34,540 nucleotides of DNA from Gemmatimonadota bacterium (GTDB lineage: Bacteria > Gemmatimonadota > Gemmatimonadetes > Longimicrobiales > RSA9), in the NCBI GenBank assembly GCA_017881445.1, contig JADGQX010000017.1, forward strand, positions 1 to 34,540. The letters run 5' to 3'. The notes below the pieces were generated by a model. It had not been told where the DNA came from. It did no database searches and saw only the letters and a list, made by a program, of their open reading frames with translations. Positions 1,849-33,317 of this stretch are shown here, piece by piece. The position numbers and the translations under genes were made by a program. How positions within the stretch are numbered: the stretch's first letter is position 1; each line of letters opens with the position of its first letter.

Positions 1849-2631
1849 TCAGATGATGTGCAGCAGCCGGAGCAGGAGGACGGTGGGCCCGACCGACATG
1901 AGCACGGTGCGGGCGATGTTCACGAAGTTCCTGCTGGCCTGGGCCGGGACCTCGATCTGGTCGCCAGCCCGGAGGCTGAGCTGATCGAGGGTCCAGCCAT
2001 CTACGATGGCGGCCTGCAGCGTATTGCCATCCCAGATGGTCTTGCCGCCGCGCGTCACCTTGATCCCCTGCATATTGGCGGTGCCCGAGGGTCCGCCGGC
2101 GAGCATGAGCACGTCGGGGATGAGCGACTGGGCGGGCACGACGAAGAAGCCGGGCTTGTTGACGGCGCCCAGGATGGTGACGCGCACGAGGGAGTGGGCG
2201 TGCACCACGGGCTCCACCACGAAGCGGCTGATCTGCTTGGTCAGGTGCGTCTCCAGCTCGGAGCGCAGCACGCCGGCCACGGGGATGGGGCCGATGGCGG
2301 GCAGCACCAGGACGCGGCCGGGGTCCACATTGAAGGTGGCGGTGAGCGGCGCCTGTCCCTCCACGACCAGCTCGACCTTGTCGCCCACCTGAATGTCGCC
2401 GTTCTCCAGGCGGTCTTTGATGAGCTGGGTCTGGGCTTTAGTGCGCTCACGGTACGCGGCCGTGTACGCCGTGTTCTTGCTGCCGGCCGTATAGCTCTGC
2501 AGCAATGACTGAAGCTGCTCCCGGCTGAGCTGCGAGCGGCCGGGGTCGAAGACGTCCGGCATGGGCGACTGCGCCGCGACGGGGCCCGCGAGCGCCGCCA
2601 GGACGAGGACGGAAGCCAGATTCCTGAACAT
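1849..2631 (-). CDS. Polysaccharide export protein (Wza/EpsE-like, Poly_export + SLBB)
   Basis: About 260 residues. A signal peptide (residues 1-20, ending GPVAA before Gln) is followed by a Poly_export domain (about 74-143, containing VGDKVELVV and LPAIGPIPVAGVLRSELETHL-like text) and an SLBB segment (about 149-198, VTILGAVNKPGFFVVP). A hydrophobic helix closes the protein (236-260). Wza-type proteins form the outer-membrane exit channel for capsule or EPS. This one has no lipobox Cys and is shorter than Wza, nearer the EpsE type found with exosortases. I chose ATG 2631 for the clean signal peptide; in-frame GTG 2685 (immediately after the kinase stop) and ATG 2673 are alternatives and would indicate translational coupling to the kinase gene. 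Confidence 0.88.
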   Translation of the reverse strand: MFRNLASVLVLAALAGPVAAQSPMPDVFDPGRSQLSREQLQSLLQSYTAGSKNTAYTAAYRERTKAQTQLIKDRLENGDIQVGDKVELVVEGQAPLTATFNVDPGRVLVLPAIGPIPVAGVLRSELETHLTKQISRFVVEPVVHAHSLVRVTILGAVNKPGFFVVPAQSLIPDVLMLAGGPSGTANMQGIKVTRGGKTIWDGNTLQAAIVDGWTLDQLSLRAGDQIEVPAQASRNFVNIARTVLMSVGPTVLLLRLLHII

Positions 2632-2685
2632 GATCACCAGCCGGCCGAACGATCGGCCCACAGAGGTTTGCATGGGCACCCGCAC

Positions 2686-5091
2686 TCAGACGGCGGGCTG
2701 CAGTTGCTTGGGCTCGGCCTCTTCGTTGCCGGAGTCGTAGCCCGGGAGATAGCGGTAGTAGCGATAGATCGACTGCTCGCGCGTGCCGTTCAGCACCACG
2801 CCCAGCACGCGGGTGGAGACGCGCGTCAGGTTGTCCAGGTGCGTGTGCGCCAGCGCCCGCTCCGTGCGGCCGGTACGGATCACCAGCAACAGGTTGCCGG
2901 CCAGGGTGGCCAGGACGAAGGGGTCCACGCCTGCGGCCAGGGGCGGACTGTCGATCAAGATGGCGTCGTACTGGGTGCGCATGCGCGCCAGCAGCTGCCG
3001 CATGGCGGCGGAGGCCAGCAGCTCCGGGCCGTTGTGCATGCGGGTGCCGGAGGCAATGCAGTGCAGGCGCTCGTGCTGGGTGCCGTGCAGCACCTCGGCG
3101 TCGGTGGCGCGCCCCTCGAGCAGATCGGTCAGCCCGGGCTTGCGGTCGAACTTGAGCAGGTGGTGCATGGTGCCGCGCCGGATGTCGCCGTCGATGACCA
3201 GGGTACGGAACCCCTGGTCGGCAAAGGCGATGGCCAGGTTCGAGATCAGGAAGGACTTGCCCTCGCCCGTGCCGGGGCTGGTCACGGTCACCACCATGGG
3301 GCCGGCCGCGCCGTAGGCGTGCAGCAGGTTCAAGCGGATGGTGCGCAGCGACTCCAGCGCCTGGGTCAGCTCTTTCTGCGCCATGGCGCCGCCCGTCATC
3401 TGCAGGTGGGGCAGCACGCCCAGGATGGGCAGGCCCATGTGGAAGGTGACCTCTTCCGGGTAGCGGACGTGGGGGTCGAGCCGGTCCAGCAGCAGCGCCA
3501 GCACCAGGCCGAGCCCGATGCTGCCCACGATGCCCAGCAGCAGCAGCTTGATGCGCGGGTCGGAGTCCGGCTCGCGCGGCACCGCGGCGCGGTCGAGGAC
3601 GCGCACGTCCGGGATCGAGGTCTCGGCCGCGAGGCGCGTGGACTCGTAGCGGCTCTGCACGTTGTTGTACAGCTCCTCCAGGCCGGAGACCCGGCGCTGG
3701 AGCCGCGCCTCGTTGATGACGCGGGCCGGGATCGCCTTCAGGTCGCTGGAGGCGTTGGCCACCATGTTGTCCAGCACCGTGGCGCGCATCTGCAGCGCCG
3801 AGACCAGGGCGCTGGCCAGCCGGGGCACCGTCTGGTGCTCGATGACCGCGATCTCCTCCTTGGCGCGCCGGACGGCCACGTAGTCGTCCGTGTACTGCTG
3901 CTGCAGCGCGCGCAGCGCGGCACGCTTCTGGGTCAGGTCCTGCAGGGCGGCGTTCAGCTCGGGCGACTGCTGCACCGAGCCGATGACGGCCAGGGCGTCC
4001 ACCGCCGGGCCGCCGTTGGCGCCGCCCGTGAGCGCGCTGCGGATAGCTTCCTCGTCCCGGGTCAGCTGCTCGCGCTGGATCTTCACGTCGAAGAAGTGGG
4101 AGAACTCGGCATCGGCGCCATTGGAGCCGCGCACGGCCTTGCTGCTCGAGGGCAGGGAGACCACGGCGTCGGAGGGCGTGGTCGCGTTGGAGACCTTGAA
4201 CGCCTCCATCGCGCTCTCGGCGTCGTGCAGGTTGTTCGCGGCAATGCCGACCTGGCTGTCCAGGATCTTGGCGATCTCGGTCATCTTGCCGGCCTTCAGC
4301 TCGGCCGCCACCGCCACGTAGCGGTCCACGATGGCGTTCACCACCGCCGTCGTGCGGTACGGATCCTCACCAAGCAGCCCGATGCTCAGGAAGTTGCCGT
4401 TCTTGGGCATGACCGCCTGCAGCTTGTCGTTGAGCGCGCGAGCGGCATCGCGCGGGGCCGAGACCGTGAAGGTGACCTCCCGGCCCGGTCGCAGCGCCTG
4501 CGGATTGGGCAGCCAGAAGAAGCCGGCGCCGCGACCGATGGAGTCGCCGCGCGTGCCGTGCTCGGAAATGGCGCCGTCGTCCGAGTTCAGCGTGTAGGTG
4601 CGCCCGCTGCGGCTGACGACCAGCGAGTACTTGGCCGAGTGGAACGGGCTGTTGAGCTTGAACTCGCGGAACATGCCCGCGTCGCCCGTCTCGTAGTCCA
4701 GGTAGAGCCGCTGCTCGCGGACGACGTAGTCCATGACCTGGTAGGAGCGGAGCAGGTCGAGCCAGGCCGTGGAGGCGAGCAGCTCGGACTGCTGAATCGG
4801 GCCGCTGCGGCCGTCGTCCCGGTTCGGCACCTCCACCCAGATCGTGGATTGCGCCATGTACTTCGGGTGGAAGAAGCGCGAGACGACCGCCGTGGCCGCA
4901 ATGCCCAGCACGGATACGCCCACGATCAGCCACTTGTAGCGCCCGAGCGCCGCTAGATAGCGCGACTTGCCGGACGGCGGCTGCCGCATCGGCTGGGCGC
5001 TCATGCCGGAGACGTCGAAGGGAAGCTCCGACGACGCCGAGGCGACAAGCTCGGCTTGAGAACGAGGATCGGGGACGAGTTCGTTTGCCAT
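2686..5091 (-). CDS. Wzz-domain polysaccharide co-polymerase fused to tyrosine autokinase (Wzc/GumC-CapB type)
   Basis: About 801 residues. A first membrane helix (54-71), a long periplasmic coiled-coil region of Wzz/GNVR type, a second helix (514-536), then a cytoplasmic BY-kinase domain. Walker A SPGTGEGKS is at 605-613, Walker A' LVIDGD at 631-636, and Walker B ILIDSPP at about 711-717. The C-terminal tyrosine cluster YRYYRYLPGY (776-785) is the autophosphorylation tail. The protein controls chain length and export together with the downstream Wza-like protein. ATG 5091 is chosen because the frame upstream of it (to 5304) is Pro/Arg-rich and lies over the promoter region. A sigma-54 type promoter is predicted about 60 nt upstream of this start. 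No Wzb-like phosphatase is visible nearby. Confidence 0.92.
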   Translation of the reverse strand: MANELVPDPRSQAELVASASSELPFDVSGMSAQPMRQPPSGKSRYLAALGRYKWLIVGVSVLGIAATAVVSRFFHPKYMAQSTIWVEVPNRDDGRSGPIQQSELLASTAWLDLLRSYQVMDYVVREQRLYLDYETGDAGMFREFKLNSPFHSAKYSLVVSRSGRTYTLNSDDGAISEHGTRGDSIGRGAGFFWLPNPQALRPGREVTFTVSAPRDAARALNDKLQAVMPKNGNFLSIGLLGEDPYRTTAVVNAIVDRYVAVAAELKAGKMTEIAKILDSQVGIAANNLHDAESAMEAFKVSNATTPSDAVVSLPSSSKAVRGSNGADAEFSHFFDVKIQREQLTRDEEAIRSALTGGANGGPAVDALAVIGSVQQSPELNAALQDLTQKRAALRALQQQYTDDYVAVRRAKEEIAVIEHQTVPRLASALVSALQMRATVLDNMVANASSDLKAIPARVINEARLQRRVSGLEELYNNVQSRYESTRLAAETSIPDVRVLDRAAVPREPDSDPRIKLLLLGIVGSIGLGLVLALLLDRLDPHVRYPEEVTFHMGLPILGVLPHLQMTGGAMAQKELTQALESLRTIRLNLLHAYGAAGPMVVTVTSPGTGEGKSFLISNLAIAFADQGFRTLVIDGDIRRGTMHHLLKFDRKPGLTDLLEGRATDAEVLHGTQHERLHCIASGTRMHNGPELLASAAMRQLLARMRTQYDAILIDSPPLAAGVDPFVLATLAGNLLLVIRTGRTERALAHTHLDNLTRVSTRVLGVVLNGTREQSIYRYYRYLPGYDSGNEEAEPKQLQPAV

Positions 5092-5162
5092 TCGTTGTGA
5101 CTCGCGAGCGACGGGGATTGGCCTGCCGAGACCGGAGCGCTCAGACGGCGGAGGCGCCGGAA

Positions 5163-5176
5163 GCAAGCGCAGTACC
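5163..5176 (-). promoter_or_regulatory. Predicted sigma-54 (-24/-12) promoter for the kinase/export operon
   Basis: On the minus strand the sequence GGTACTGCGCTTGC, followed by TT, has GG and GC separated by exactly 10 nt, an intact TTGC -12 box and GGTAC at -24. This matches the RpoN pattern TGGCAC-N5-TTGC with the family's tolerated C-to-T change. The expected start of transcription is about 5152, giving a leader of about 60 nt before the ATG at 5091. The gene diverging from it encodes a sigma-54 activator. Confidence 0.6.
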
Positions 5177-5255
5177 GCGTGGACCGAGCGGGCGGAACCG
5201 CTTCCGGGCGTTGGGCGTCCGCGCTTCCGACCCACCAGGACCCCACGCCCGACCC

Positions 5256-5271
5256 CCCACAAGCCTGTGGG
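5256..5271. promoter_or_regulatory. Inverted repeat, candidate activator-binding site between divergent sigma-54 promoters
   Basis: CCCACA-AGCC-TGTGGG is a perfect 6-bp inverted repeat. It lies about 110 bp upstream of the predicted minus-strand start (about 5152) and about 140 bp upstream of the predicted plus-strand start (about 5406), the usual distance for NtrC-type enhancers. A second small repeat, CAACA-GG-TGTTG, follows at 5279-5290. Binding by the adjacent regulator is inference. Confidence 0.35.
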
Positions 5272-5380
5272 CGGCGCGCAACAGGTGTTGACGCCCGCCG
5301 TCACGTCCAGGCGGGCCTCGCGTATGCGTTTCTGCTGCTAAGCACCCGCGCTTCCCCGCTTTTCCGCCTCGTGCCGATCC

Positions 5381-5394
5381 GGCACCGCCGTTGC
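5381..5394 (+). promoter_or_regulatory. Predicted sigma-54 (-24/-12) promoter for the response regulator
   Basis: GGCACCGCCGTTGC contains GGCAC, five bases, and TTGC, with the invariant GG and GC exactly 10 nt apart. The preceding base is C instead of the preferred T. Transcription would start near 5406, leaving a leader of about 200 nt before the ATG at 5606. The left half overlaps an inverted repeat GTGCCG-ATC-CGGCAC (5371-5385). It implies that the sigma-54 activator controls its own gene. Confidence 0.55.
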
Positions 5395-5605
5395 GGTTGG
5401 GACCGCCGCCCGACGGCTGCGGGCAGCGACGGCGTCGGACGGACCGCGGGGCATGCGCGGCCCGGCCACCTCCGAGGAGGAGCGCCGTGGAGCCGACCGG
5501 GCATCCAGAGCCGCACCGAACAGGAGTTTGTGCTTTTCCCGCTATGGACGGGCGCGCCGGGCGCCCGTCCGTATTGCATCCCTGGCCCAGGAGCCGCCGA
5601 CGATT

Positions 5606-7108
5606 ATGGGCATTCCTAACCCGACGAGCTTCGAGCCCGGCCTCATGGACGCCGGCGGTTCGAATGGCCGGTTCAAGCCGGAGCTCGTCCGCGTGCTCGT
5701 GGTGGACGACGAGTACTCGCTGCGCGAGAGCTGTGCGAACATCCTGCGCGCCGAGGGCTACACCGTCGCCACCTGCGGGCGCGGCGACGAGGCGCTCGAC
5801 CTCCTGCGCCGGCGTCCCTTCGACCTGGTCATGATCGATTTCTTCATGTCCGAGGTCGGGGGGATGGACCTGCTTAAGGCCTGCCTGGAGACCAACCGGG
5901 ACTGCCTGGTGATCATGGTCACGGGTGAGGCCACGGTGGAGGTGAGCCTGGAGGCGGTGAACGCGGGCGCCTGGCAGTTCCTGCCCAAGCCCTTCTCCGC
6001 CGGCCACCTGCAGCTGCTGGCGGGACGCGCCTGCCACGCCATTGCCGCCCGCAGCGAGATCGAGAGCGCCGAGGAAGCCGCGGGCGCCGCCCAGCACAGC
6101 CAGCACGTCACCGTGCTCGGCACCTCGCCTGCCTTCCGCCGCGTCATCGACCTGGCCCGGAAGGTGGCGGGCACGGGCGTGTCCGTCCTGATCTCCGGCG
6201 AGAGCGGCACCGGCAAGGAGCAGATCGCCCAGTTCATCCACCAGCACAGCCGCCGCCGCGGGCAGCCCATGGTGGCGCTGAACTGCGCCGCCCTGCCCGA
6301 GCCGCTGCTGGAGTCCGAGATGTTCGGTCACGTCCGCGGCGCCTTCACCGGCGCGGTCCAGGACAAGCCCGGGCTGCTCGAGGTGGCCAACGGCGGCACC
6401 CTGTTCCTGGACGAGATCACCGAGATGTCGCAGGCGATCCAGGCCAAGCTGCTGCGGGTCATCCAGGACGGCGTGGTGCGCCGCGTGGGCAGCAACAGCA
6501 CCGACTCCGTGGTGGACGTCCGCTTCATCGCCGCCACCAACCGCGATCCGCAGCAGGCCACCGACCAGGGCATCCTGCGCCGCGATCTCTACTACCGGCT
6601 GCGCGTGGTGCCGATCCGCATGCCGCCGCTGCGCGAGCGCCCCGAGGACATCCCGATCCTCGCCCGCCACTTCCTGGCCCGCTACTGGACCCGCCACCGC
6701 GAGCTCAACGCCCCGCTGCCTCACCTCGCGCAGAGCGCGGTGCAGGAGCTCCAGTCCCGGGAATGGCGCGGCAACGTCCGCGAGCTGCAGAACGTCATCG
6801 AGCACGCCGTGGTCCTGCTCCCCTCGGGCGCCGAGCTCGAGGCCGCCGACCTGCCTTCCCTCGACGATGGCGATTCGCCCCGCCGGGGCGTGCCCACGCC
6901 CATCGTCGGCGCCAGCGAGGAGCCCTATCACATTGCCCGTGAGCGCGTCCTGGCCGACTTCGAGCGAGGATACCTGCTCTGGCTGGTCCGCCGCGCCTCC
7001 GGCAACATGTCCGAGGCCGCCCGCATCGCGGGAGTCGACCGAACCACGCTATACCGGCTCATGGAGAAACACGCGCTGCGCCGCGGGACCATAATCACCG
7101 AGGCCTGA
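5606..7108 (+). CDS. Sigma-54-dependent response regulator (NtrC family, PrsR-like)
   Basis: About 500 residues in three domains. The receiver domain (about 28-140) has the acidic pair Asp34/Asp35, phospho-acceptor Asp78, Thr106 and Lys128. The AAA+ domain (about 168-400) has Walker A GESGTGKE (198-205), the sigma-54 contact loop GAFTGA (245-250) and Walker B GTLFLDE (264-270). A Fis-type helix-turn-helix (ARIAGVDRTTLYRLMEKH) ends the protein. In Zoogloea-type exosortase systems an RpoN activator of this class (PrsR) turns on PEP-CTERM genes, and the same job is likely here. No partner kinase (PrsK) is present in the window. Start ATG 5606 has AGGAG 12 nt upstream; in-frame ATG 5453 would add a low-complexity extension. 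Confidence 0.9.
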   Translation: MGIPNPTSFEPGLMDAGGSNGRFKPELVRVLVVDDEYSLRESCANILRAEGYTVATCGRGDEALDLLRRRPFDLVMIDFFMSEVGGMDLLKACLETNRDCLVIMVTGEATVEVSLEAVNAGAWQFLPKPFSAGHLQLLAGRACHAIAARSEIESAEEAAGAAQHSQHVTVLGTSPAFRRVIDLARKVAGTGVSVLISGESGTGKEQIAQFIHQHSRRRGQPMVALNCAALPEPLLESEMFGHVRGAFTGAVQDKPGLLEVANGGTLFLDEITEMSQAIQAKLLRVIQDGVVRRVGSNSTDSVVDVRFIAATNRDPQQATDQGILRRDLYYRLRVVPIRMPPLRERPEDIPILARHFLARYWTRHRELNAPLPHLAQSAVQELQSREWRGNVRELQNVIEHAVVLLPSGAELEAADLPSLDDGDSPRRGVPTPIVGASEEPYHIARERVLADFERGYLLWLVRRASGNMSEAARIAGVDRTTLYRLMEKHALRRGTIITEA

Positions 7109-7170
7109 AGCCCACGCTGCGCGTGGAGCAGGAGCAGGGCTCAGGTGCACATGCACGGGCACGAGGATGG

Positions 7171-7212
7171 GCACGAGGACACTGCGGTCCTCGTGCTCTT
7201 TCTCGTTTCTGG
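7171..7212 (+). terminator. Rho-independent terminator after the response regulator gene
   Basis: A perfect 10-bp stem, GCACGAGGAC (7171-7180) with GTCCTCGTGC (7187-7196) and a 6-nt loop, is followed by a T-rich tract (TCTTTCTCGTTTC). It starts 62 bp after the regulator stop. The left arm is part of a short direct repeat of GGGCACGAGGA just upstream. Confidence 0.75.
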
Positions 7213-7411
7213 GGCAGCGAGTTCGTGGGGGGCCGGCGAGTTGGTGGGCCATCGAGCAGGGGTGGAAGGCTGACGGCGGAGTCGGCGGAGAGGCAGGTCG
7301 GTTCGCCTCCAGCGGTTTGGGCTCGTGTCCAGTGGCCGAGTGCCGTGGTCGTGCGGGGCGGCCGGCGCGCGAGGGCGACGGCCGCCTGTTGTCGGATAGG
7401 CCCAACACCGG

Positions 7412-7428
7412 CTGTGGCGACGCCACAG
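7412..7428. promoter_or_regulatory. 17-bp perfect palindrome, candidate operator
   Basis: CTGTGGCG-A-CGCCACAG is an 8-bp perfect inverted repeat around one base, about 165 bp upstream of the sugar transferase start. The half-site CTGTGGC/GCCACAG recurs at 29361-29380. Between 7212 and 7412 I see no gene. Confidence 0.35.
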
Positions 7429-7454
7429 ATGGCACGTGGTCGGGCGCGGTCGGA

Positions 7455-7490
7455 CATTATAGCTAAATTGTTCTGTGATAGCTACTTAAA
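7455..7490. promoter_or_regulatory. AT-rich island with two ATAGCTA repeats upstream of the exosortase operon
   Basis: This stretch is strikingly AT-rich for the genome. It carries ATAGCTA twice (7459-7465 and 7478-7484), 19 nt apart; the core TAGCTA is itself a palindrome. It lies about 100 bp before the sugar transferase start and is the likeliest promoter/operator zone for the operon starting at 7593. I cannot place a -35/-10 pair with normal spacing. A TGGCAC-containing sequence at 7430 has GG-to-GC spacing one base too long for sigma-54. Confidence 0.4.
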
Positions 7491-7592
7491 TCCAACGCAA
7501 CCGCTCTGCCCGGGCCGCGCACGGGCGTTGCCCTCTGCACACTCGTCGCACGGGCGCGCTGCCTACGCCATTCGCACCAGAGGGAGATTCGA

Positions 7593-8375
7593 GTGACGCC
7601 GACGAACGCGCAGGAGCGGGTTTTGGAGGGAGTGGAGGTCGTCTGGGAGGCTCCGGGCTCGGCCGCGGTCACGCGCAAGCGTAGCCGCCGGATGCGGGCG
7701 GGTCTTGCGGAGCTGGCCCCGACGGTCGATTGGGCGCGGCGGGCGCAGGCCCGCCGGTACCTGAACGTGGTCATCGCGCTGACGCTGCTGATCCTGTCCC
7801 TGCCGGTGATGCTGGTGGTGGCGCTGCTGGTGAAGCTGACTTCGTCGGGCCCGGTTCTGTTCACGCAGACGCGGGTGGGTCTCGACCGGCGGCAGCTGGA
7901 GCCAGGGGGGAACTGGCGCCGGAGCGTGGACTACGGCGGCCGTCTCTTCAAGATCTACAAGTTCCGGACGATGTACGTGCATGCGGGCTGGGCCTGGGAC
8001 CAGGTGTGGGCGCAGCCGGATGATCCGCGGGTGACGCCGGTCGGCCGGATTCTGCGAGGCTTCCGGCTGGACGAGCTGCCGCAGCTCTTCAACGTCTTGC
8101 GGGGTGACATGAACGTGGTGGGACCGCGACCGGAGCAGCCGAAGATCTTCATGCAGCTGCGGGGCGAGATCGACCAGTATCAGCAGCGCCAGCGGGTGCT
8201 GCCGGGGATCACGGGGTGGGCGCAGATCAACCACCACTATGACGCCTCGGTGGACGATGTGCGGCAGAAGCTGACCTACGACCTGGAGTATGTGCAGCGC
8301 CAGTCGCTGATCCACGACGCGCTGATCCTCCTGCGGACGCTGCCGGTGGTGCTGCTGCGGCGAGGCGCGTGGTGA
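7593..8375 (+). CDS. Undecaprenyl-phosphate sugar phosphotransferase (bacterial sugar transferase, PF02397 type)
   Basis: 260 residues. One N-terminal membrane segment (about 57-80) is followed by the catalytic domain with KIYKFRTM (120-127), the Asp-Glu pair in RLDELPQLFNVLRGDM (158-173), GPRPE (177-181) and GITGWAQI (205-212). The enzyme transfers a sugar phosphate from a nucleotide sugar to undecaprenyl phosphate and so starts the repeat unit. It has only the catalytic module, lacking the extra N-terminal membrane region of WbaP/WcaJ, as in short PglC-like members. GTG 7593 is the start: AGGGAG lies 6 nt upstream. It is the first gene of the operon that contains the exosortase (next start 2 bp after its stop). 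Confidence 0.9.
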   Translation: MTPTNAQERVLEGVEVVWEAPGSAAVTRKRSRRMRAGLAELAPTVDWARRAQARRYLNVVIALTLLILSLPVMLVVALLVKLTSSGPVLFTQTRVGLDRRQLEPGGNWRRSVDYGGRLFKIYKFRTMYVHAGWAWDQVWAQPDDPRVTPVGRILRGFRLDELPQLFNVLRGDMNVVGPRPEQPKIFMQLRGEIDQYQQRQRVLPGITGWAQINHHYDASVDDVRQKLTYDLEYVQRQSLIHDALILLRTLPVVLLRRGAW

Positions 8376-8376
8376 G

Positions 8377-9255
8377 ATGACGGAGCTGGCAGTAGACGTC
8401 GCGGGGCGCGCGCTTCCGGTGCGCTTGAGCCGGTACGTTCCGCACCTGTTCGCGGCTGCCGGCTTCGCTGTCCTGTTCTGGCGTCCGCTGCAGATGCTGG
8501 CGGTGGACTGGTGGACGGATCCGGAGGCGGGGCACGGGCTGCTGATCGCGCCGCTGGCGCTCTGGCTGGCGTGGCGGGCGGGGCTGTCGGAGAAGTCGGC
8601 TCCGCGGCCGATGGCGGGGCTGGTGCTGCTGGCCGGGGCGGTGGGGCTGCGCTACCTGGCCGGGCTGGCGGGCGAGTGGTTCAGCATGCGGATTTCGGCG
8701 CTGCTGGCCGCGGTGGCCCTGGTGCTGTTCTGGCGCGGCCTGCCGCAGCTGCGCCGCTGGTGGCTGCCGGCGACGCTGCTGCTGCTGTCGATCCCGCTGC
8801 CCGAGATGGTGCTGGGCACCCTCGCGCTGCCGTTGCAGCTGGAGGCGTCGCGGCTGGGAGCGGCGCTGCTGCGCTGGCGGGACGTGCCGGTGGTGCTGGC
8901 GGGGAACGTGATCCACATGCCGGGCCGCTCGCTGTTCGTCACCGAGGCGTGCAGCGGGTTGCGGTCGCTGACCGCGCTGATCTCGCTGGGCGTGCTCATC
9001 GGCGGCGGCTGGCTGCGGCACCCCGTGACCCGCTGGGCGATCGTGCTGGCGGCGATCCCGGTGGCGGTGGGGCTCAACGGGATCCGGGTGTTCCTGACCG
9101 GGTTCCTCGTGTACTTCGTGGACCCGGTACTGGGCACCGGGTTCATGCACCTGAGCGAGGGATGGGCGGTGTTCGTGGTGGCCTTCGCCATCCTGGGAGG
9201 CATTGCCTGGATGCTGGCGCGCATGGAGTCCCGCTTCACTGGAGTTCGGCCGTGA
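8377..9255 (+). CDS. Exosortase (EpsH/Xrt family transpeptidase)
   Basis: 292 residues with about eight membrane helices. The catalytic signature is complete: Cys192 in TEACSGLRSL, Arg237 in LNGIRVFLTGF and His258 in GFMHLSEGWAVF. Exosortases recognise C-terminal PEP-CTERM signals, cleave them at the inner membrane and probably attach the protein to a carrier or glycan. The EpsI domain is not fused but encoded by the next, overlapping gene. The two PEP-CTERM proteins just downstream are the obvious substrates. I do not assign an Xrt subtype letter from sequence alone. Confidence 0.93.
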   Translation: MTELAVDVAGRALPVRLSRYVPHLFAAAGFAVLFWRPLQMLAVDWWTDPEAGHGLLIAPLALWLAWRAGLSEKSAPRPMAGLVLLAGAVGLRYLAGLAGEWFSMRISALLAAVALVLFWRGLPQLRRWWLPATLLLLSIPLPEMVLGTLALPLQLEASRLGAALLRWRDVPVVLAGNVIHMPGRSLFVTEACSGLRSLTALISLGVLIGGGWLRHPVTRWAIVLAAIPVAVGLNGIRVFLTGFLVYFVDPVLGTGFMHLSEGWAVFVVAFAILGGIAWMLARMESRFTGVRP

Positions 9256-10549: not shown

Positions 10550-11272
10550 ATGAATTGGAGACACACAGCAGGGACTCTCGCGGTGGCGATCGGACTCACG
10601 CTCGGGAGCGTGAGTGCGGGGTCCGCCACGGGGGCGCCGGTCCCACCCCAGGGCAGCCTGACCGCCCTGGGGGGACCGGTATGGGCCACGTTCGTGAACA
10701 AGACGGCGGTGCTCGTGTCCGAGGTCTGGTTCTTCGGCTCGAGCAACCCGGGCCCGAGCAACAGCCCGAACGTCTCGGGCGCTCGCTTCCTGTTCGCGAA
10801 CAACGGCGCAAAGTTCTCGCAGTACAACCACGCGACGGCCGCGGCGTTCACTCCGCCGGCCCTGACGACGCAGACGGTGTTCCTCGGCAACTTCGCCGCG
10901 GGGACGTCCCTCGTCTTCGGGCTGTTCGTGCCGCAGCTCAAGAACACGACCTTCGCGCCCAAGGGCCGCTGGTTCTATACCGGCGCGCCGAACGCCAACC
11001 AGGACGACAACGTCCATGGGAAGTACACGGTCCTGAACCCGACCACCACCCAGGTGGCGTTCGAGGATCTGTGCCACGGCTCGTTCTCTCCCGTGGTCTG
11101 CGCGGCCGACAATCCGCATTACGTGTCGGCATGGGAGTACAACGCCCACCTCTTCAACGTGCAGGGTGCCACGGTAACGCCCGAGCCGGTCTCCATGACG
11201 CTCTTCGGCACGGGGATGATGGGGCTGGCGGCGCTGCGGCGTCGTCGGAAGAAGGTGCAGCCGGAGGCCTGA
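10550..11272 (+). CDS. PEP-CTERM sorting-domain protein, DUF4114-like (copy 1)
   Basis: 240 residues. A signal peptide (1 to about 26, ending SAGSATGA) is followed by a beta-rich mature domain. The C-terminal sorting signal has TPEP (210-213), a hydrophobic stretch VSMTLFGTGMMGLAAL and RRRRKK. The mature layout (FLGNFAAGTSLVFGLFV, RWFYTGAPN, DDNVHGKYTVLNP, VAFEDLC) resembles DUF4114 PEP-CTERM proteins. The usual acidic D-x-D-Y-D-D loop is replaced by AWEYNAHLF, and two Cys appear (EDLC...VVC), perhaps a disulfide. AGGAGGG at 10537-10543 sets the start. It is the likely substrate of the exosortase upstream. The DUF4114 link is my reading of the pattern. Confidence 0.9.
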   Translation: MNWRHTAGTLAVAIGLTLGSVSAGSATGAPVPPQGSLTALGGPVWATFVNKTAVLVSEVWFFGSSNPGPSNSPNVSGARFLFANNGAKFSQYNHATAAAFTPPALTTQTVFLGNFAAGTSLVFGLFVPQLKNTTFAPKGRWFYTGAPNANQDDNVHGKYTVLNPTTTQVAFEDLCHGSFSPVVCAADNPHYVSAWEYNAHLFNVQGATVTPEPVSMTLFGTGMMGLAALRRRRKKVQPEA

Positions 11273-11813: not shown

Positions 11814-11916
11814 AGCCGTTCGGCGACGACGCCGTGGCAGTCCGTCGCCGCCGCGGGCGACACACCGTGCCAACGCAGTATTGGGGAACCACAGTTCAAT
11901 CGGGGGAGAGTGCCAC

Positions 11917-12645
11917 ATGAAGTTCCAACGGGCGGTAGCCGCCCTTGGTCTCGCTGTCGGCCTGGCGCTCGGTAGCGCCAGCGCCGGCTCCGCGACCTTG
12001 GCGCCGGTTCTGCCAGGCAGCCAGGGGAGCCTGACGGCGCTGGGCGGGCCCGTCTGGGTGACGTTCCTGTCGAAGAACGCCGCCCTGGTGTCCGAAGTCT
12101 GGTTCTTCGGATCCACCAACCCGGGGCCCAACCAGCATCCCAGCGTCGTGGGGGCCCGCTTCCTGTGGGCCAACAACGGCGCCAAGTTCTCGCTGTACAA
12201 CCATGCCGTCGCGGCGGTGCACACAGCGCCGCCACTGTCGACCCAGACCATCTTCCTGGGCAACTTCGCCAGGGGCACGTCGCTGGTCTTCGGGCTGTTC
12301 GTGCCGAACCTGAAGAACACCACGTTCGCGCCCAAGGGCCGCTGGTTCTACACCGGCGCGCCCAACCGGAACGCGGACGACAACATCCACGCCAAGTACA
12401 CCGTCCTGAACCCGACCAACACCAAGGTCGGCTTCGAGGACCTGTGCAAGGGCACGTACGCGCCCACGATCTGCTCGGCTGACAACCAGAAGTTCGTGGC
12501 CGCCTGGGAGTACAACGCGAACGTGTTCGACGTCAAGGGCGCCACGGTCACGCCCGAGCCGGTCTCCATGACGCTCTTCGGCACTGGCGCCGCCGGCCTC
12601 GCCTTCCTCCGCCGCCGGCGGAAGAAGCAGCAGCTGGAGGCCTGA
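11917..12645 (+). CDS. PEP-CTERM sorting-domain protein, DUF4114-like (copy 2)
   Basis: 242 residues, a close paralogue of the preceding gene (most positions of the mature domain are identical by eye). A signal peptide ends at SAGSA. The mature domain keeps FLGNFARGTSLVFGLFV, KNTTFAPKGRWFYTGAPN, DDNIHAKYTVLNP and VGFEDLC. The sorting tail has TPEP (212-215), a hydrophobic stretch and RRRRKK. The two conserved Cys (EDLC, TIC) and the AWEYNANVF replacement of the acidic loop are shared with copy 1. ATG 11917 is chosen because GGGGGAGAG lies about 7 nt upstream and a clean signal peptide follows. It is likely anchored or released by the exosortase at 8377. Confidence 0.9.
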   Translation: MKFQRAVAALGLAVGLALGSASAGSATLAPVLPGSQGSLTALGGPVWVTFLSKNAALVSEVWFFGSTNPGPNQHPSVVGARFLWANNGAKFSLYNHAVAAVHTAPPLSTQTIFLGNFARGTSLVFGLFVPNLKNTTFAPKGRWFYTGAPNRNADDNIHAKYTVLNPTNTKVGFEDLCKGTYAPTICSADNQKFVAAWEYNANVFDVKGATVTPEPVSMTLFGTGAAGLAFLRRRRKKQQLEA

Positions 12646-25326: not shown

Positions 25327-25340
25327 GGAGGGGTAGTTGC
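25327..25340 (+). promoter_or_regulatory. Weak sigma-54-like element upstream of Big_2 protein gene
   Basis: TGG (25326-25328), eight bases, then TTGC (25337-25340) gives the exact GG-to-GC spacing of sigma-54 promoters, with a good -12 box, but the -24 box lacks the CAC. A start near 25352 would leave a leader of about 45 nt to ATG 25397. Confidence 0.25.
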
Positions 25341-25396
25341 GAGCAGCACGAGCATGTTCCACCCGTGGTAACGGTACTTCCTGCGACAACCTGCAG

Positions 25397-26608
25397 ATGC
25401 GGCACCGGTTTCAAGACGGCGGCGTGCGCCCCGGCGCGTGCCCCGACCCAGCGCCCGCGCGGCGGGCGGCCACTCTCATCGGGACCCGACCCTTGCTGAC
25501 GCTGCTCTGCCTCCTCGCCGGTGCCCTCACCGGTGCCTGCGCCCGTTCGGGCGACCTGGCCGCCGGCCGGCCCTCGGTCGCCGAAATCGCTGCCGCGGTC
25601 CAGATCGTGGCCGCGCCTTCGTCGCTGGCGGTCGGCCAGCAGGGCCAGGTCGTCGCCCTCGCCCGCGACGGCGCCGGCAAGCCGCTGCCGTCGTATCCCC
25701 TGAGCTGGGCCACGAGCGACAGTACCATCGCGGGCGTGGACAGCACCGGCCTGGTGACCGGCATCTCCCAGGGCTCCGCGGACATCAGTGCGGTAGCCAA
25801 CGGCCTCCTGGCGACCGCCCGGGTGAGCGTGTTCCTGCCGGGGGCCGACCAGAGCGTGGGCGTCGTGTTCTCCGACGACTTCGAGGGGGGCTACGGGCCG
25901 CAGCAGAACGGTGCCGGCTGGACCAACACCGCTCCGGTGAACGTGACCATCTCGAGCGACGTCGCCCACAGCGGCTCGAACAGCCTGCGCTTCCGCTTCC
26001 CGGGCAAGGTCGACTGCCTGGACGCGTCCGCGGAGCAGCGCTTCGCCGTGGGACGACCGCTGCGGGAGCTCTGGCTCGAGTACTGGATCTACTTCCCCGC
26101 CGGGGGCGAGGGGGGCAGCGCCCGCTACGCGTCGCGGACGCAGGCCGGCTGCCCGAGCACGGCGGACAACAACAAGCTGCTCTCGCTCTTCGGGCCGGTC
26201 TACAACGGCGAGACCACCCTGGGACTCCAGAGCTGGAGCAGCCGGAACGGCCAGCCGGGCGACGCCCGCCTGGACGTGGCCTACTCCAAGGCGGGACACA
26301 ACGGCGTCTGGTTCTACCCGGGCGCCAACGCCGACCCCTTCGTGAGCGATGCCGACCGCGGCCACTGGCTGCAGCTGCGGGTGCACGTGCGGCTGGCGGA
26401 CGTGGGGGTGTCCAACGGGCACGTCCAGGTGTGGAAGAACGGCGCCCTGATTCTGAACGCCGACAACCTCGACTGGTACGACTCGACCGGTCAGGCCAAC
26501 TACATCGTGCAGGGCTACCTGATGGGGTGGAGCAACTCCGGGTTCACGGACACGACCTACGTCTACATCGACGACGTCAGCATCATGGACCGCGACCCCG
26601 GCTGGTGA
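25397..26608 (+). CDS. Secreted Big_2 protein with C-terminal polysaccharide-lyase-like domain (copy 1)
   Basis: About 403 residues. A hydrophobic export signal (32-44) ends LTGAC, a weak lipobox with Cys48. One bacterial Ig-like (Big_2) domain spans about 68-146, with SWATSDSTIAGVDSTGLVTG as its core. A C-terminal domain (about 158-403) contains NSLRFRFPGKVDC, LEYWIYFPAGGEGGSAR, WLQLRVHVRLADVG, QVWKNG and YVYIDDVSIMD. That pattern matches the concanavalin-like beta-sandwich of heparinase/alginate-lyase-type polysaccharide lyases, but no catalytic residues can be assigned. It is a paralogue of 31857-33317. The start is uncertain: ATG 25397 lacks a clear ribosome-binding site, and TTG 25337 overlaps the promoter-like element. 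Confidence 0.8.
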   Translation: MRHRFQDGGVRPGACPDPAPARRAATLIGTRPLLTLLCLLAGALTGACARSGDLAAGRPSVAEIAAAVQIVAAPSSLAVGQQGQVVALARDGAGKPLPSYPLSWATSDSTIAGVDSTGLVTGISQGSADISAVANGLLATARVSVFLPGADQSVGVVFSDDFEGGYGPQQNGAGWTNTAPVNVTISSDVAHSGSNSLRFRFPGKVDCLDASAEQRFAVGRPLRELWLEYWIYFPAGGEGGSARYASRTQAGCPSTADNNKLLSLFGPVYNGETTLGLQSWSSRNGQPGDARLDVAYSKAGHNGVWFYPGANADPFVSDADRGHWLQLRVHVRLADVGVSNGHVQVWKNGALILNADNLDWYDSTGQANYIVQGYLMGWSNSGFTDTTYVYIDDVSIMDRDPGW

Positions 26609-31856: not shown

Positions 31857-33317
31857 ATGAAGGTGCGGAGACGTTCAGACGTGCGCCCCTGGCGCAAGCA
31901 TTTGCTCGTCGCGGGCGTGGTGTACCTGGCTCTGGCGTCCGGCTGCGGGGATGGTCCCGTGGGCGTGGCGCCGGTGATGACGCAGCCTGCCGCGGTGCTG
32001 AGCGGCACGATCGCGAAGGTGACGGCGACGCCGACCACGGCCTCGGTGGCGGTCGGATCGACCACGACGCTGACGGCGATGGCCTACAGCTCGAGCGGCA
32101 CCCTGGTGACGGGTGGCACGTTCGGGTGGACGAGCAACAACAAGGCGGTGGCGACGGTCTCGGGGGGCGTGGTGACGGGCGTCGCCCCCGGTAGGGCCAC
32201 GATCAAGGTGGGATCGGGCGGTTTCACGGCGACGTGTGCGGTCACGGTCACGGCGCCACCCCCGGTGATCTCGCCGGTGCTGGCGTCGTCGGTGATGCTG
32301 GCGCCGGCGAGTGCGAGCATCGGCGTGGGCGGGACGGTGCAGCTGGCGGCGACGGTCAAGGACGTGACCGGGCTCATCCTCACGACGCGGCCGATCACCT
32401 GGAGCAGCAAGGCGGCGTCGGTCGCGACCGTCTCGGCGACGGGCGCGGTCGCGGGGGTGGCAGTAGGTTCGGCGACCGTGACGGCGAGCGTGGACGGGAT
32501 CCAGGCGACGTCGCTGGTCACGGTGACGACGGCGCCGCCTCCGCCTCCGCCTCCGCCTCCGACCGTGGGCGGGGTGCTCTTCGCCGACGGCTTCGAGGCG
32601 GGTTATGCGCCCAAGCAGAACAACGCGGGCTGGACGAACACGACGCCGGTGAACGTGACGGTCTCGACCGACGTCGCCCACGGCGGCACGCACAGCCTGC
32701 GTTTCAGCTTCCCCGGGAAGGTGGACTGCAACGACGCCTCGGCGCAGCAGGCGTTCACGCTCGGCCGGCAGATGACGGAGGTCTGGATGGAGTACTACGT
32801 GTATTTCCCCGCCGGGGGCGAGGGCGGGAGCGCGAGGTACTATCACCGGTCGCAGCCCGGGTGCAAGGACACCTCGACGAACAACAAGTTCTTCACGGTC
32901 TACGGACCGAACTACTCCGGTGAAACGACCATGTCGCTGCAGACTTGGACGACGGCGGTGAGCGTGCCGGGCGACACCCGGGTCAACACCGCCTACTCCA
33001 AGGCGGGCCGCAACGGGATCTGGTTCTACAGCGCCAACGACGACCCCTTCGTGAGCGCGCCAGACCTCGGCCACTGGATGCAGATCCGGGTGCACCTGCG
33101 GCTGGCGAGCTTCGGCCAGTCCAACGGCGTGATCGAGGTCTGGAAGAACGGCGGCAGGATCCTCACCAGCACCACCCTGGACTGGTACGACTCAACGAAC
33201 AGCGCCAACTACATGACGCAGGGCTACCTGATGGGCTGGAGCAACTCCGGCTTCACGCAGATGACCAACATCTACCTGGACGACTTCAAGATCATCGACC
33301 AGAACCCGGGTTGGTGA
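31857..33317 (+). CDS. Secreted Big_2 protein with C-terminal polysaccharide-lyase-like domain (copy 2)
   Basis: 486 residues. A basic N-terminus and hydrophobic stretch end LALASGC (Cys30), a probable lipoprotein signal. Two Big_2 domains (about 53-132 and 144-224; cores WTSNNKAVATVSGGVVTGVA and WSSKAASVATVSATGAVAGV) are followed by a nine-proline linker (227-235). The C-terminal beta-sandwich (about 238-486) is closely similar to copy 1: HSLRFSFPGKVDC, EYYVYFPAGGEGGSARYYHR, WMQIRVHLRLASFG, EVWKNG, IYLDDFKIID. A surface lyase-like or glycan-binding role for the locus polysaccharide is inferred. GGAGG lies 8 nt before the ATG. Confidence 0.85.
   Translation: MKVRRRSDVRPWRKHLLVAGVVYLALASGCGDGPVGVAPVMTQPAAVLSGTIAKVTATPTTASVAVGSTTTLTAMAYSSSGTLVTGGTFGWTSNNKAVATVSGGVVTGVAPGRATIKVGSGGFTATCAVTVTAPPPVISPVLASSVMLAPASASIGVGGTVQLAATVKDVTGLILTTRPITWSSKAASVATVSATGAVAGVAVGSATVTASVDGIQATSLVTVTTAPPPPPPPPPTVGGVLFADGFEAGYAPKQNNAGWTNTTPVNVTVSTDVAHGGTHSLRFSFPGKVDCNDASAQQAFTLGRQMTEVWMEYYVYFPAGGEGGSARYYHRSQPGCKDTSTNNKFFTVYGPNYSGETTMSLQTWTTAVSVPGDTRVNTAYSKAGRNGIWFYSANDDPFVSAPDLGHWMQIRVHLRLASFGQSNGVIEVWKNGGRILTSTTLDWYDSTNSANYMTQGYLMGWSNSGFTQMTNIYLDDFKIIDQNPGW
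32535..32558 (+). repeat. (CCGCCT)4 hexamer microsatellite in the Pro linker
   Basis: Four exact CCGCCT units encode the polyproline linker of the Big_2 protein. Slippage would change linker length by two prolines per unit without shifting the frame. Confidence 0.6.

Follow-up and report, generated by a model that had tools for sequence, protein, structure and literature searches.

What controls export of an exopolysaccharide (EPS) in a soil-dwelling Gemmatimonadota bacterium, and does the same control reach other surface genes? The question is raised by a 514-bp gap between two divergent transcription units on contig C89 of a 4.75-Mb draft genome (34.5 kb, referred to below as the window, the whole stretch of DNA analysed), the named close relatives being nearly all Gemmatimonadota. 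A preliminary description of the sequence had placed two outward-facing sigma-54 (RpoN) promoters and an inverted repeat in this gap, and had predicted a self-controlled RpoN switch for EPS export. The genes concerned are as follows.

1849 to 2685, minus strand: polysaccharide export protein (Wza-like OPX), second in the kinase operon
2686 to 5091, minus strand: Wzz/Wzc-type chain-length protein with tyrosine autokinase (BYK)
5606 to 7108, plus strand: NtrC-type response regulator (the activator), with a receiver, an AAA+ domain with GAFTGA and a Fis-type helix-turn-helix with the end AARIAGVDRTTLYRLMEKH
7593 to 8375, plus strand: initiating sugar-phosphate transferase (PGT, EpsB_2-like)
8377 to 9255, plus strand: exosortase
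10550 to 11272, plus strand: PEP-CTERM protein gene 1, without the palindrome and sigma-54 module
11818 to 12645, plus strand: PEP-CTERM protein gene 2, without the module

On the plus strand the activator is followed by the sugar-phosphate transferase, the exosortase, an HpsJ-like protein and the two PEP-CTERM proteins, beyond which lie glycosyltransferases, sulfotransferases and an O-antigen ligase (Wzy_C) family protein. Two bacterial Ig-like domain proteins with weak polysaccharide-lyase matches are also encoded in the EPS cluster (25337–26608 and 31857–33317). The activator matches PF00072, PF00158 and PF02954, the domains of an NtrC-type enhancer-binding protein, and the GAFTGA motif and receiver domain originally attributed to it are both present. 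A single rpoN gene, the lack of which would have spoken against an RpoN switch, is located on contig C315 of the same genome.

Sigma-54 boxes and a predicted enhancer palindrome in the divergent gap

The elements of the gap considered here are listed below.

5163 to 5177, minus strand: predicted sigma-54 promoter facing the kinase/export operon, CGGTACTGCGCTTGC, conserved in relatives
5256 to 5271: the 6-bp inverted repeat CCCACA-AGCC-TGTGGG of the preliminary description, not the conserved unit and sharing only TGTGGG with the palindrome
5266 to 5283: predicted enhancer (UAS) of the activator, TGTGGGCGGCGCGCAACA, an 18-bp copy of TGTTGC-N6-GCAACA; de novo motif, cross-validated
5380 to 5394, plus strand: sigma-54 promoter-like box facing the activator gene, CGGCACCGCCGTTGC, with strong counterparts only in loci L036 and L038

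Both boxes lie where they were first described and have the exact GG-N10-GC geometry and an intact TTGC. The expected transcription starts are near 5151 for the minus box, 60 nt ahead of the ATG at 5091, and near 5406 for the plus box. The RpoN matrix scan that had been suggested as a check found both of them, but neither rose above chance with the textbook sigma-54 matrix, the best minus and plus sites in the 514-bp gap having p∼0.10 and p∼0.12 against the shuffled gap. No enrichment of TGGCAC-N5-TTGC with up to two mismatches was seen across the window (27 observed versus 38.9 expected), and CGGYAY-N5-TTGC occurs genome-wide at chance frequency (25 versus 28). Since neither box beats the shuffled gap with the textbook matrix, the case for them depends on comparison with relatives. 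When the matrix was learned solely from relatives, both boxes gave p=0.005, which is the floor of the test, and each was the top match on its own strand across all 34.5 kb.

The comparison set consisted of 42 Gemmatimonadota loci with the same divergent kinase and activator gap, collected through homologues of the activator, or 43 gaps including that of the window. No alignment beyond short weak matches was obtained between the window's gap and those of the relatives, among which the activator recognition helix is nearly invariant. De novo motif search by expectation-maximisation with no prior recovered the palindrome TGTTGC-N6-GCAACA in 42 of the 43 gaps (log-likelihood 199) and, on the kinase-facing strand, the sigma-54 motif CGGyaCcgnncTTGC (log-likelihood 136, or 144 if seeded with the textbook consensus), while shuffled gaps reached 62 at most. 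In six-fold cross-validation, with held-out gaps scored at p≤0.05, the palindrome was significant in 37/43 gaps, the kinase-side box in 29/43 (Fisher 5×10−25) and the activator-side box in 9/43 (Fisher 2×10−4; strong in few only). The textbook matrix, built independently of these gaps, likewise gave an excess of kinase-side boxes (23 gaps, Fisher 7×10−7); these shuffle p-values are optimistic because some of the sequences share ancestry. The kinase-side box is thus conserved where relatives share the gene order, which is the comparison that the preliminary description had proposed. A chance origin of the two boxes and the repeat, given the high GC content of the gap, would agree with the near-background scores of the sites taken alone and with the genome-wide count of CGGYAY-N5-TTGC, but this reading is already contradicted by the cross-validated conservation across genera and by the independent rediscovery of the motifs before PEP-CTERM genes (see below), and we regard it as very improbable.

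The same comparison changed the identity of the predicted enhancer. The 6-bp inverted repeat first put forward is present, but the unit common to the gaps is not this repeat; it is the overlapping 18-bp palindrome, which replaces it as the enhancer element. Short inverted repeats are plentiful in the gap (63 pairs, 73% GC). The window's palindrome, one half of which is weak (TGTGGG), lies 106 bp from the minus box and 114 bp from the plus box, and for the other gaps the best palindrome-box pairs are mostly 65–190 bp apart. Enhancer spacing for such activators is about 80–150 bp (PMC5552954). Enhancer-promoter spacing showed no significant helical phasing (best period 11.4, p=0.10).

Evidence for the plus box is confined to fewer genomes. 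Strong counterparts with a CCGTTGC core at similar distances were found in two of six same-family relatives (L036 and L038); the box is absent from the other four (L033, L034, L040 and L041) and from most relatives outside the family. A de novo search for a conserved plus-strand promoter found none and drifted to the palindrome instead. Hence, of the RpoN self-control originally predicted, a kinase/export promoter with an enhancer some 120 bp away, beside the gene for an RpoN activator, is supported, but autoregulation of the activator is so only in part: with strong plus boxes limited to the window and two same-family relatives, it is lineage-limited and weaker, and self-activation is plausible here and not general. 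There is a substantial chance, somewhat short of even, that only the export-side promoter and enhancer are real, with the plus box a fortuitous match and the activator gene transcribed from a different promoter. The narrow distribution of the box and the drift of the plus-strand search both favour this alternative, against which stand the score of 15–16 that the box attains with the matrix learned from the opposite strand, the highest on the plus strand of the window, its spacing from the palindrome and the look-alikes in L036 and L038.

We propose that the phosphorylated activator would bind the palindrome at 5266–5283, contact sigma-54 RNA polymerase on the minus box by looping and so open transcription of the tyrosine-kinase/export operon. 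In the lineage of the window the activator would probably also fire the plus box, raising its own level.

Predicted targets outside the gap

The two PEP-CTERM genes beside the exosortase have no palindrome and sigma-54 pair upstream, which confirms the earlier statement that no well-spaced site precedes either. That statement had served to contrast this locus with PrsR, which controls PEP-CTERM genes, the export genes being the targets here instead. The contrast holds within the window. It does not hold genome-wide, however, as the module precedes both PEP-CTERM genes found elsewhere in the genome. On contig C377 the palindrome TGTGGGGGGGATGCGACA is followed at 161 bp by the box TGGCTCCCGAGTTGC (p=0.0025), and on contig C75 the palindrome TGTTGCAGGACAATCACT is followed at 93 bp by the box CGGCATGCCGATTGC (p=0.005). 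The genome-wide scans of this genome were made by pattern, and their target list is incomplete.

Throughout the order, a significant pair precedes 23 of 38 PEP-CTERM genes. A fresh de novo search on the 38 upstream regions gave tGttGCggCnntGCnACA and gGGCACGggcgTTGCa as the top two motifs, with log-likelihoods of 89.6 and 79.1 versus about 53 for shuffled sequences. A paired-site score of at least 20 was reached by 19/38 PEP-CTERM genes versus 1/88 neighbouring genes, the latter drawn from PEP-CTERM and activator loci; EPS-locus genes were unsuitable as a control because many carry the module. The contrast with PrsR is therefore misleading, since the module is found not only before the PEP-CTERM genes on C377 and C75 but before about half of the 38 examined in the order.

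The paired-site test was positive for half of the OPX genes (13/26), before which a de novo motif search found nothing clearly exceeding shuffled sequences, and for 23 of 35 sugar transferase genes. The box of the latter, recovered de novo from the window and 34 relatives, is a conserved variant, CCGNGCAYG-N4-TTGC, in which the −24 GG reads GNG, and it too has an enhancer-like palindrome upstream. The two elements in the window are the following.

7390 to 7407: second enhancer-like palindrome, TGTCGGATAGGCCCAACA, ahead of the sugar transferase gene
7515 to 7532, plus strand: sigma-54-like box with the variant −24, CCGCGCACGGGCGTTGCC, about 60 nt ahead of the sugar transferase gene; de novo motif from 35 such genes

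A further sigma-54-like box with an enhancer-like palindrome is located at the end of another contig of the genome (L178, G000:C92:4387), past a DegT-like aminotransferase gene, and its target lies off the contig.

Because this enhancer and −24/−12 pair are also present upstream of the PEP-CTERM genes on C377 and C75, a single signal would turn on polysaccharide export together with the partner surface proteins, and the export machine and these proteins may be made on one command. We consider it probable, with some assurance, that the gap serves as the control region of an RpoN regulon that links EPS export with PEP-CTERM proteins and resembles that of PrsR but has a different activator and enhancer.

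Comparison with known RpoN systems

In the PrsK–PrsR system of Proteobacteria (TIGR02916/TIGR02915) the enhancer motif is 17 nt long with the 3′ end TTTACA. Haft et al. (2006, PMC1569441) saw this motif in Proteobacteria only and noted that it is missing from PEP-CTERM genes of other phyla, for which further regulators had yet to be discovered. The regulon predicted here is like the PrsK–PrsR system in having an NtrC-type response regulator, a predicted enhancer upstream of a −24/−12 box, PEP-CTERM targets and EPS genes nearby. It differs in its enhancer, TGTTGC-N6-GCAACA, in having export and sugar-transferase genes among its predicted targets, and in the partner kinases of the window's relatives, which lack the PrsK architecture; in the one relative's kinase searched, the matches were to HisKA and HATPase_c only. 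Identification of the activator as PrsR was rejected: it scores 348 bits against TIGR02915, below the curated cut-off of 502.6. No PrsR exceeded the cut-off in its own genome or in 19 relatives, and no PrsK did so in its own genome. Motif 1 of PrsR (the 17-nt motif) was not recovered before the PEP-CTERM genes, where the de novo motif was tGttGC-N6-GCnACA.

In Aquincola tertiaricarbonis, pepA is an RpoN1-dependent PEP-CTERM gene with a −24/−12 promoter and a mapped start, whereas RpoN1 did not appear to control the genes for EPS biosynthesis (PMC9850573). The PEP-CTERM genes considered here likewise have a −24/−12 box; unlike in Aquincola, export genes also carry a predicted promoter. BerB and RpoN of Burkholderia cenocepacia control the Bep exopolysaccharide through berA and c-di-GMP (PMC5552954), which is similarly a case of a sigma-54 activator for an EPS, although here direct sites at the export genes are predicted. 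No report of an RpoN regulon linking EPS export and PEP-CTERM proteins was found in open-literature titles and abstracts combining Gemmatimonadota with RpoN or with PEP-CTERM/exosortase. For one phylum outside Proteobacteria, the analysis names an activator and gives its predicted enhancer sequence and a list of predicted targets, all of which are directly testable.

The probable reader of the palindrome and its possible signal input

Nearly all genomes that have the gap carry the palindrome beside the activator gene, at a constant position upstream of the sigma-54 boxes. To judge from sequence, the palindrome is likely to be read by this activator, though not exclusively. In three incomplete assemblies (G108, G135 and G129; loci L233, L246, L240 and L248) PEP-CTERM genes carry the module, and no activator of this clade is among the 10 candidates scored per genome; a similar site may be read there by another activator. 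These genomes, together with a paralogue in the window's own genome that has nearly the same recognition helix, lend some weight to the alternative that the palindrome is bound by another protein (a repressor, the paralogue or another activator) and that the adjoining activator has other targets, but the constant position of the palindrome and its place beside the activator gene speak against this, and we think it unlikely.

The activator of the window has no neighbouring partner for phosphorylation. In the relatives examined (L033, L038, L039 and L042) a soluble histidine kinase follows the activator and a receiver-GGDEF protein is encoded between the kinase and export genes; both genes are absent from the window's locus (7108–7593 and at 2686). 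Contig C79 of the same genome (L032, G000:C79, 5124–8695) carries a second cassette comprising a receiver-GGDEF gene, the paralogous activator, which is 59% identical to that of the window, and a histidine kinase, which is 57% identical to the L033 kinase. The C79 kinase is a candidate phosphate donor to the window's activator by cross-phosphorylation. We give an even chance to the broadest reading, that of a widespread Gemmatimonadota RpoN regulon which, with its own enhancer code TGTTGC-N6-GCAACA, would act as an independent PrsR counterpart in jointly controlling EPS export, the initiating sugar transferase (through the conserved variant −24) and PEP-CTERM proteins, and whose activator, in the window's genome, would have lost its neighbouring kinase and may take phosphate from the paralogous cassette.
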